Shown here: piece after piece, positions 18,865 through 54,210 of the stretch
Layout of the letters: every line of letters starts with the position of its first letter
How positions within the stretch are numbered: position 1 is the stretch's first letter
Assembly (NCBI GenBank): GCA_009602725.1
Contig: WELB01000195.1
Span: 6,460 to 60,825, forward strand
DNA: 54,366 nt
From: Spirogloea muscicola
Lineage: Eukaryota > Streptophyta > Zygnematophyceae > Spirogloeales > Spirogloeaceae
Direction of reading: 5' to 3'
Notes under the pieces: model-generated
The model's input: the letters and a program-made list of their open reading frames with translations, nothing else
Told to the model about the DNA's origin: nothing
Database searches by the model: none
Program-made: the position numbers and the translations under genes

Positions 18865-19690
18865 ATTGGACCTTGTTCATTCTTTTTGGGCTGGCTTCTA
18901 TACAGCCCTTGACCCCATTGGAAGAGCCACTTTCTTCTATTCTTACACAGAAGAATTTCGTATATTTGAACCAAACGTAGGCCAAATGGCCAAGTACAAA
19001 GGCAAGCACATTTAAAGATCTACATGAAGTACAGCAGATTGACCCGCTCAGTAACCACGGGTCAAAATTAAAAGGTCACTAGTCGATGCATGAATACTAG
19101 ATACTAGAAACGAAGCCCTTCTGCCACCAACTAGAGCTCGCCCAGCTTTCTGGTGCAAGGAACTAGCCTGAGCACGCTGCAAACAGGCTGAAACTCGTCG
19201 TCGCAAGAGCAACAGATATGCAGCTGGCAAGCCCATCTCAGCCGGAAATACATTTGCACGTCGAATGTAGCCTAGATTGGCAATGTTTTGAAGGAGAGTG
19301 TGGAAACGAGGACCCAGACAGCCAAAGATGTCGATTGCCGCTGGCAGGAGCTGATTGCATTGGGGGTAATCAGAGTAGTGCTGCAGTTTTCTTTGTTCTG
19401 CACCGCCCACTGCGTGACCAGCGATGTGTGAGGTCGATGCTGGACCTTTATATGCCTCCATAACAACAACTTCGACCAGGGCCCGTGGTCCTCCACCAGG
19501 TTGCACGCCCACAATGTCAAGTGTGCGGCGATGATGACATCCCTGGGCGTCCGTGGTGATAGGCATGATAATGTTGACTTCCACAACTGCACGGTAGCCG
19601 GCGTCGCGCATCAAGCCCGCCAGGGCATTGCGAAGGAGGTTGTGAATGCCCACCACTTTTGGTCCAGTGGGGCATCTCAGCTTGTGAGTA
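18865..19690 (-). mobile_element. Non-LTR-like retroelement 3' end, copy 1
   Basis: A 202-residue frame (19656-19048, minus) codes for the shared C-terminal domain. It opens with an HNLLRNALAGLMRDAGY segment, continues with LDIVGV...RALVEVVV (a possible PD-(D/E)XK-like nuclease core), HYSDYP, IDIFGCLGPRF and an Arg-rich helix, and ends in LTRGY-stop. The 3' tail runs to about 18945 and includes GGCCAAGTACAAAGGCAAGC in inverse complement. An 8-bp hairpin surrounds the stop codon (19039-19065). A hairpin module lies at the tail (about 18865-18945). No reverse transcriptase remains, so the copy is strongly 5'-truncated. The C-terminal pattern resembles that seen downstream of RT in some algal and protist retroelements, but the clade is unknown. 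Confidence 0.75.
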
Positions 19691-23538: not shown

Positions 23539-23735
23539 TCCCCAGGAGGCGATGGTCTTGAACGACATGGTCATGAGTAATGTTAGTGTTTCCGGTACAT
23601 CTGACAAGCTTCTAAATGAGGGTACCCCCTGACCATCTGGTCAGTTCGCCCGCCTGTGCTCGTCTGTGTGCTTTTGGGGCGGGCGCAGACCTAGGGTCGA
23701 GTTCACATGGTCGTGCAAGTCAAGGGGGGGGTGAN
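23539..23735. other. Short spacer ending in an assembly gap
   Basis: This is the 3' flank of the preceding gene, followed by a G-run and an N at 23735 directly before the GA tract. Nothing else is seen. Confidence 0.5.
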
Positions 23736-23991
<256 letters not shown>

Positions 23992-24060: not shown

Positions 24061-24324
24061 CAGCGCTCATCACACCCGGATAGCAAGTTCACTCCTAAGG
24101 ATGGCTGCTCATTATCCCTCTTTAGGAGCCGCAAATCAGTATGTGTAGCAGCCGAGAAGGAGTTGCCCTGCCTATACAAGAACAGCGCTGCCAAATGGCC
24201 TGAACCGGCAGCAAGGGTACGGCCAGCATGCAGATGCCTGCACATACTTAAGGAACCGGCGGCAGATAGACGCATGCGGTATGGAAGGGCTAAAGAGCCC
24301 GTGGCAAGAAGAGATCGTGTATTA

Positions 24325-24610
24325 GAAAGAAATGTAGGCCAAATGGCCAGGTACAAAGGCAAGCACATCTAAAAATCTACATAACCTACAGCAGATTGAC
24401 CCGCTCAATAACCACGGGTCAAAACATAAAGGTCACTACTCGATGCATGAATACTAGATGCCAGGAACGGAGCCCTTCTGCCACCTACTAGAGCTCGCCC
24501 AGCTTTCTGGTGCAAGGCACTAGCCTGAGCACGCTGCAAATAGGCCGAAACTCGTCGTCGCAAGAGCGACAGATATGCAGCTGGCAAGCCCATCTCAGCC
24601 GGAAACATAT
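24325..24610 (-). mobile_element. Retroelement 3' end, copy 2 (short)
   Basis: This codes for the last ~67 residues of the shared domain (AEMGLPAAYLSLLRRRVSAY ... YVLTRGY-stop). It keeps the stop-codon hairpin (24396-24422) and the tail with GGCCAAATGGCCAGGTAC. It is strongly 5'-truncated and lies head-to-head with copy 3, so the two form an inverted pair. Confidence 0.8.
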
Positions 24611-24957: not shown

Positions 24958-25515
24958 TTGGGCTGCCTTAGAACTGGTGAGGACCACGGGCCTTGGTCGA
25001 TGTCGTGCTTACGGAGGCGTATAGAGGTCCAGCATCGACACACATCGCTGGTTACGCAGTGGGCAGTGCAGAACAAAGAAAGCTGCAGCACTACTCCGAT
25101 TATCCCCAATGTGATCAGCTCCTGCCAGCGGCAGTCGACATCTTTGGCTGCTTAGGTCCTCGTATTATTACTCTCCTTCAAAACATAGCTAATCTAGGCT
25201 ACACACGACATGCAAATGTGTTCCCGGCTGAGATGGGCTTGCCAGCTGCATGTCTGTTGTTCTTGCAATGACGAAGTTTCGGCCTGTTTGCAGCTTGCTC
25301 AGGCTAATGCTTTGCACCAGAAAGCTGGGCGAGCTTCTAGTTGGTGGCAGAAGGGCTTCGTATCTGCCATCTTGTAATCAGGCATCGATTAGCGACCTTT
25401 ACGTATTGACCCGTGGTTACTGAGCGGGTCAATCTGCTGTAGGTTTATGTAGGTCTTTAGATGTGCTTGCCTTTGTACTTGGCCATTTGGCCTTCGTTTG
25501 TTTCAATACACGAGA
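24958..25515 (+). mobile_element. Retroelement 3' end, copy 3
   Basis: The coding remnant starts near the RALVDVVLTEAY segment and runs through YAVGSAEQRKLQHYSDYP and VDIFGCLGPR to DLYVLTRGY-stop at about 25424. It is degenerate in the last third. The 3' tail matches copies 1 and 2, and the hairpin at the stop codon (25405-25433) has nine perfect pairs. Confidence 0.8.
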
Positions 25516-25621
25516 TTTCCTTTCTTCTCCGTGGGCGAGCAATTTCTTTCACAACCACCAGTCAAACTGGAAGCGCTGTTCCTTCCAGAAAATGGAGTCT
25601 ACATGAATCGAAGCCCTATGC

Positions 25622-47190: not shown

Positions 47191-47890
47191 TCGGCATTGG
47201 GAGGAGCTTCTGCATCAAGTTGGCAGGTTGTCAGTGACGACAGATATGTAGCAATTTGCAGAACTTTTGGTGCAGGATGTCACAGCCACATTACGGATGC
47301 CAATACTTCTGAGATGGCGAGTCACCCTGTACTACCTGGCGGAGGCCGACGAGCCTTGGTTGACGTGGTGGTGACGGAGGCATACAAGAGTTCGGCTTCG
47401 ACGCACATTGGCCACGCAGTGGGAGGTGCTGAGCAGAGAAACAGCAGGAAGCTCCGACATTACTCTGACTACCCCCGCAGCGACCACCTCCTACCGGCGG
47501 CAATCGACACTTTCGGCTGCATCGGCCCTTGCTTCCACACCTTACTGGAGAATATTGCAAGTTCGGTATATGCTCGACGTGAGCATATGCTTCCAGCACA
47601 GATGGGCATGCCGGCAGCCTACTTGTCATTCTTGCGTCGCCGAGTGTCAGCTTGTCTGCAGCGAGCTCAGGCTCATGCATTGCATCAGAAAGCTGGTCGG
47701 GCCTTAGCTGGTAGTTCAAGAGCTTGTCGATTGCCGTCCAGTATTCGAGCATCAGTTTGCGACCTCTATGTGCTGACTCGTGGTTACTGAGCGGGTCAGC
47801 TTAGCAGCAGGTGACGTACATTTGTCAATGTGCTTGCCTATGTACTTGGCCACATATGGCCTCCCCATCTCTTAATACACACGCATTTCT
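47190..47890 (+). mobile_element. Retroelement 3' end, copy 8 (open frame)
   Basis: A 197-residue frame (47197-47790) holds RRALVDVVVTEAY, GHAVGGAEQR, LRHYSDYP, IDTFGCIGPCFHTLL, LPAQMGMPAAYLSFLRRR and the end YVLTRGY-stop. The tail (GTGCTTGCCTATGTACTTGG, then CCACATATGGCC) matches copies 1-3. The stop-codon hairpin (47772-47800) differs from copy 3 in both arms yet still pairs. Confidence 0.8.
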
Positions 47891-54084: not shown

Positions 54085-54210
54085 GAGTTATGGAGGGCCT
54101 GAGTGGCCAAGTACACCGGCAAGCACATTGACAGGTGTACATCGCCTGCTGCTGTCTAAGCTGACCCGCTCAGTGACCACGAGTAAGCACAGAGCGCGGC
54201 TCGGTCAGCC
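54085..54210 (-). mobile_element. Retroelement 3' tail, copy 9
   Basis: The last codons (VLTRGH-stop) and the tail with GTGCTTGCCGGTGTACTTGG match copies 1-3 and 8. The stop-codon hairpin (54160-54188) has one mismatch. It lies ~55 bases upstream of the CNGC start in the same orientation. Confidence 0.75.

Follow-up and report, generated by a model that had tools for sequence, protein, structure and literature searches.

A hairpin enclosing the stop codon of a poly(A)-less LINE in Spirogloea muscicola

Template choice by LINEs devoid of a poly(A) tail has been worked out in a few animal elements, according to the available passages of the corresponding reports (PMC4176376, PMC10499050, PMC12180492). 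Binding of the ZfL2 protein to the stem-loop in the 3′ tail of its own element is described in passages of PMC4176376. The R2 protein recognises the fold of its own 3′UTR for template choice, and stem or pseudoknot mutants regain activity upon compensatory changes (passages of PMC10499050 and PMC12180492). A 3′ stem-loop of L1 and Alu is also proposed to act in template choice, in passages of PMC5135761. We describe here a LINE whose hairpin encloses the stop codon; a literature search, mostly outside subscription papers, yielded no earlier description of a LINE hairpin of this kind.

Like the stringent LINEs UnaL2, ZfL2-1 and ZfL2-2, as presented in passages of PMC4176376, this element carries a short stem-loop near its 3′ end. 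Two marks of the stringent type are indeed found: the 3′ end lacks poly(A), and the 3′ stem-loop is conserved, with covariation that is not significant. However, the stem-loops of stringent LINEs are described, in the same passages, within the 3′ tail or 3′UTR, whereas here the 5′ arm is made of the last codons and the stop codon lies in the loop. Stringent LINEs frequently, though not obligatorily, have a partner SINE with the same tail; no such tail-sharing short element was detected among 17 short copies of the present LINE, which have 17 different 5′ flanks. With R2Bm and vertebrate R2, the element shares a zinc-finger-like motif, a reverse transcriptase (RT), a putative CCHC-like motif and a putative C-terminal nuclease-like domain in one frame. 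It differs from R2 by its dispersal in thousands of copies and by a 3′UTR of about 100 nt instead of the 248 nt given in the R2 passages. An R2 element proper, with a single insertion site in 28S rDNA, was ruled out, the copies being found by thousands on many contigs. In R2Bm the core fold lies within the 3′UTR, whose numbering starts just past the stop codon, whereas half of the present stem is coding. L1 and Alu are poly(A)-tailed, and their stem-loop does not overlap the stop codon in the passages of PMC5135761; here the overlap is present and poly(A) is not.

The window, i.e. the whole stretch of 54,366 nt that was analysed, contains five matches to the 25-base core of the hairpin with up to 3 mismatches, at 19040-19064 (−), 24397-24421 (−), 25407-25431 (+), 47774-47798 (+) and 54162-54186 (−), compared with none in 100 dinucleotide shuffles. 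In the 153-Mb assembly (471 contigs), the same search gave 4,410 matches, versus 0 for the reversed control. A search of the whole window against Rfam at gathering scores gave no match. Elsewhere in the window, a long (AG)n run beside an N (23735-23972) could correspond to an assembly gap or a collapsed repeat, and a 207-nt tandem pair with 94% identity is located at 2464-2877.

An open frame of 1,267 amino acids characterises the best copies, nine of the 150 matches listed genome-wide. This identical frame length in nine of 150 listed places suggests recent activity of this abundant family. The frame contains a reverse transcriptase domain (Pfam PF00078, E 1e-18) and a C2HC-like finger scoring under the Pfam cut-off. 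At the C-terminus, the alignment shows a CxC...HxxxC motif and, after it, a conserved R..D...DVV...K block, tentatively read as a CCHC motif plus a PD-(D/E)XK-like nuclease. Neither Pfam nor PDB profiles matched this C-terminal part, and the sole NCBIfam match was a sub-cutoff group II RT. The element is laid out like the single-ORF, restriction-like-endonuclease LINEs (R2/NeSL/CRE group), with a putative nuclease assigned from motifs and from general features of that group. The three full-length copies compared all share the 3′ end ...TTAATATACACGCATTT, without poly(A), and the 3′UTR of about 100 nt begins with the stop-codon hairpin.

The stop-codon hairpin of this LINE is real. In copy 3, a 5′-truncated copy of the A lineage (24980..25517, +; extent taken from its alignment to copy 1), it occupies positions 25405..25433 (+) with the arms ATTGACCCG and CGGGTCAAT, as found by sequence inspection, 25-mer search and RNAfold. 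The TGA stop of the retroelement frame (...YVLTRGY-stop) is located in the loop, at 25421..25423 (+), in frame with the conserved C-terminus. Arms, loop and position had been described in the same way by a sequence-only reading of this DNA. From the final codons of the ORF, the hairpin runs through the TGA into about the first 12 nt of the 3′UTR, which extends over 25424..25517 (+) and in which no poly(A) tail is seen by sequence or alignment. In copy 8, of the G lineage, the remaining 3′ part of the ORF (47197..47790, +) encodes the nuclease-like C-terminus and ends in the loop of a hairpin at 47772..47800 (+), with the arms GCTGACTCG and CGGGTCAGC (25-mer search, RNAfold); the stretch alignable with copy 3 is 47343..47880 (+). 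Each of these two copies folds into a stem of ten pairs, a U-G among them, closed by a 9-nt loop whose 3′ edge carries the TGA (copy 3, −14.2 kcal/mol, z −4.1; copy 8, −15.2 kcal/mol, z −3.8). The tenth pair, T(−7).G(+3), is added by RNAfold and shortens the loop to the nine-base GGTTACTGA. Copy 1 (18954..19492, −; hairpin at 19039-19065) and copy 2 (24315..24610, −; hairpin at 24396-24422), both analysed by alignment and folding, keep the stem as had been noted, at −13.9 kcal/mol (z −2.6 and −3.2). Only the 3′ end of copy 9 is present (54104..54188, −), with homology stopping near the hairpin base; its hairpin region (54160-54188) has the one mismatch already reported, and its predicted fold does not contain the stop-codon stem (z −0.25).

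Pairing was evaluated in copies picked by anchors outside the hairpin: 100 of 1,540 anchored copies were taken and six rows with indels set aside, leaving 94. Of these 94 copies, 88 to 93 have a standard pair at each of the seven inner positions, 82 at −15/+11 and 57 at the outermost −16/+12. In both lineages, the inner stem can thus pair in almost every copy sampled; a failure of most copies to pair, which the sequence-only reading had named as evidence against itself, was not seen.

The 5′ arm corresponds to the codons for LTR within a conserved C-terminal motif, SDLxxL(T/S)R(G/N)Y-stop, common to five LINE families (A-E) of this genome. In families B to E most copies end in this motif, some being mutated or having lost the stop. 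The conserved protein end would by itself predict conservation of the 5′ arm, so that independent evidence can only come from the 3′ arm, past the stop codon. We therefore used a null model in which amino acids were fixed, synonymous codons were drawn anew according to codon usage in the element, and the 3′UTR was shuffled. Under this null, the strength of the stem gave P = 0.002 in the G lineage and P = 0.007 in the A lineage, two values that are not mutually independent. The minimum free energy of a 51-nt window gave a weaker signal (P = 0.03 and 0.09, respectively). On internal branches of the copy tree, the core of the 3′ arm (+4..+10) accumulated 4 substitutions over 7 sites (0.57 per site), versus 58 over 30 sites (1.93 per site) in the adjoining 3′UTR (+13..+42; Mann-Whitney P = 0.008). 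The stop codon and the next G showed no internal-branch change. On terminal branches, where changes in transposon copies mostly track decay after insertion, rates in the two regions do not differ (P = 0.35). Comparing internal with terminal changes in the 3′ arm and the rest was not significant (Fisher P = 0.08), nor was the comparison of lineage consensus differences (0/7 in the 3′ arm versus 11/29 at nearby 3′UTR positions, P = 0.06).

By eye, stems in other registers can be drawn at the stop codons of families B, C, D and E, and we considered stop hairpins as a rule for the whole clade; the codon-constrained null rejects it. In families C1, C2, D and E1, where the C-terminus is retained, no hairpin at the stop codon is significant under this null. 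Family B has a stem TCACTC/GAGTGA at the stop (P 0.03), and family E2 (L120, L123, L128 and others) has GGGGATA-TTAG-TGTCCCC with TAG in the loop (P 0.04), each being one of eight sequences tested. Both are borderline and fail across eight tests, so family A stands alone.

The sequence-only reading had pointed to changes on both sides of the stem between copies 3 and 8 as covariation indicative of selection on the RNA fold, and had proposed a covariation test over aligned genomic 3′ ends. These two-sided changes are present; however, copy 3 is atypical of the A lineage at the outermost pair. We aligned 138 distinct copies, from 145 nt before the stop codon to 43-100 nt after it; the hairpin columns were left out when the tree was built. 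APC-corrected G-statistics were compared with 20 null alignments in which substitutions were re-placed randomly on the tree, a home-made version of the R-scape idea and not R-scape itself. No pair was significant, an outcome that the sequence-only reading had itself listed as a refutation: among the nine pairs tested in the 138 copies, the best was −15/+11 (E = 0.14, rank 36 of 3,828 column pairs), followed by −16/+12 (E = 0.16, rank 43 of 3,828), and the seven inner pairs had E values of 0.55 to 7.5. Covariation was accordingly dropped as a proof of the RNA stem.

Diagnostic columns divide the 138 copies into 80 of the G lineage, 48 of the A lineage and 10 of neither; the marker of a third lineage was matched 276 times. 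Which bases make up the outer pairs depends on the lineage. Copies of the A lineage have T-A at −15/+11 in 43 of 48 cases, and at −16/+12 they have T.T in 36 and A-T in 7 of 48. The two lineages also differ elsewhere, at 11 of 29 comparable sites of the 3′UTR and, upstream, at 14 of 34 third codon positions. By parsimony, fully compensatory changes at −16/+12 fall on one branch, while single changes break the pair 6 times, restore it 3 times and keep it twice; at −15/+11 they fall on two branches, and single changes break 8 times, restore twice and never keep. Each compensatory branch leads to just one or three tips, with lineages mixed in one case, so that tree error or mixed copies may underlie them. 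Apparent compensatory changes between two transposon subfamilies thus need a tree-based test before they are counted as covariation.

By analogy with stringent LINEs and R2, the hairpin is probably the first stem of a 3′ RNA module of about 100 nt in a poly(A)-less LINE with the layout of the restriction-like-endonuclease type, serving in recognition by the RT. The element's own RT would bind this module to choose its RNA, as in those elements, and would thereby bring the 3′ end of that RNA into place for target-primed reverse transcription. With the stop codon inside the loop, the stem would form only when the end of the ORF is free of ribosome. A role as RT recognition site had been put forward by the sequence-only reading; the conserved RNA hairpin holds and the RT role is possible by analogy, whereas covariation, the reason then given, does not. 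As the candidate signal lies half inside the coding sequence and is present in thousands of copies, synonymous changes offer a way to test the claim.

The stem could instead be a by-product of protein conservation, with a 5′ arm fixed by LTRGY-stop and a 3′ arm that is its chance complement in two source lineages not yet diverged there. This would fit with the five families keeping their C-terminus next to other 3′ flanks, and with a sample made up mostly of two main lineages in which covariation is not significant. We nevertheless regard it as doubtful, given the stem strength under the codon-constrained null (P = 0.002 and 0.007) and the slower evolution of the 3′ arm relative to the adjoining 3′UTR on internal branches (P = 0.008).

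Two further explanations invoke the hairpin for other functions. A translational signal, delaying termination or favouring read-through of the TGA, would account for the position of the TGA in the loop; the absence of internal-branch changes in the stop codon and the next G is what any functional stop would show. Read-through would predict a common extension, but after the TGA the frame of copy 8 reads AGQLSSR-stop and that of copy 3 is open through all 32 codons translated, the two having in common only AGQ, that is, the 3′ arm. Furthermore, related families also end in TAA or TAG, and a ribosome terminating there would open a stem that straddles the stop, whereas known read-through structures are located downstream of it. 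An effect on termination, also suggested by the sequence-only reading, is thus very improbable. A DNA-level palindrome, acting as a cruciform, a nuclease site or a transcript-end signal and not as an RNA stem, has the least to commend it: the hairpin sequence is an inverted repeat in DNA as well, but the common variants C→T at −10 and A→G at +10 give U.G on the sense RNA and A.C on the other strand, which is suggestive of pairing in RNA.

Returning to RT recognition, half of the stem is coding sequence and the stop codon sits within the hairpin; ribosome and RT would therefore compete for the same RNA site. It is conceivable, though quite unlikely, that this overlap acts as a switch from translation to template, the terminating ribosome and the RT being mutually exclusive at this site and finished translation licensing the same RNA as template. 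Such a switch, if true, would provide cis-preference without poly(A), and could leave a cluster of copy 5′ ends just upstream of the stem.

In each lineage (33 and 37 copies), RNAalifold predicted three stems: one at the stop codon, one in the middle and one that pairs GGCC with GGCC. The 3′-proximal hairpin is GGCC-ATTT-GGCC in copy 3 (25481..25492, +; sequence, fold and RNAalifold) and GGCCA-CATA-TGGCC in copy 8 (47848..47861, +; fold and RNAalifold). For the whole module, retention of the structure of one lineage in the other was not clearly above chance (P = 0.08 and 0.30), whereas the stop-codon stem alone kept 9 of 10 and 9 of 9 pairs. We therefore confine our claim to the first stem, and consider the GGCC stem likely and the middle stem possible.

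Some copies begin close to the hairpin. The core matches listed on contigs 1-3 number 88, and in 11 of them the copy starts 0-12 nt upstream of the TGAC hairpin core (L176, L181, L183, L185, L196, L202, L211, L212, L005 and two copies in L063), each with a different upstream flank. The upstream part was measured for 48 of the 88 places: besides these 11, one copy ends at about 18 nt (L213) and five at 19-60 nt. At 39 further places the anchor is present just upstream. In a sample of 70 copies chosen by their 3′UTR alone, five end in the same 0-12 nt stretch (L047, L061, L062, L063 and L255); L063 belongs to both samples, and L058, interrupted by other DNA, was excluded from the count. None of the 39 G-lineage copies chosen by 3′UTR ends there. 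This cluster of independent copies at the hairpin base is suggestive of a 5′-truncation hot spot, and it falls roughly at the 5′ edge of a terminating ribosome.

All 15 distinct 3′ flanks of G-lineage copies have a pyrimidine as their first base, and the next three bases are pyrimidines in 13, 13 and 11 of the 15. Such pyrimidine-rich flanks may reflect a target preference of the LINE. Finally, a GGGCGAGC repeat tail lies within 40 nt upstream of three of the 17 short copies (L196, L047 and L055), where 0.9% per flank is expected (P 4e-4), and the LINE may insert near the tails of other elements.
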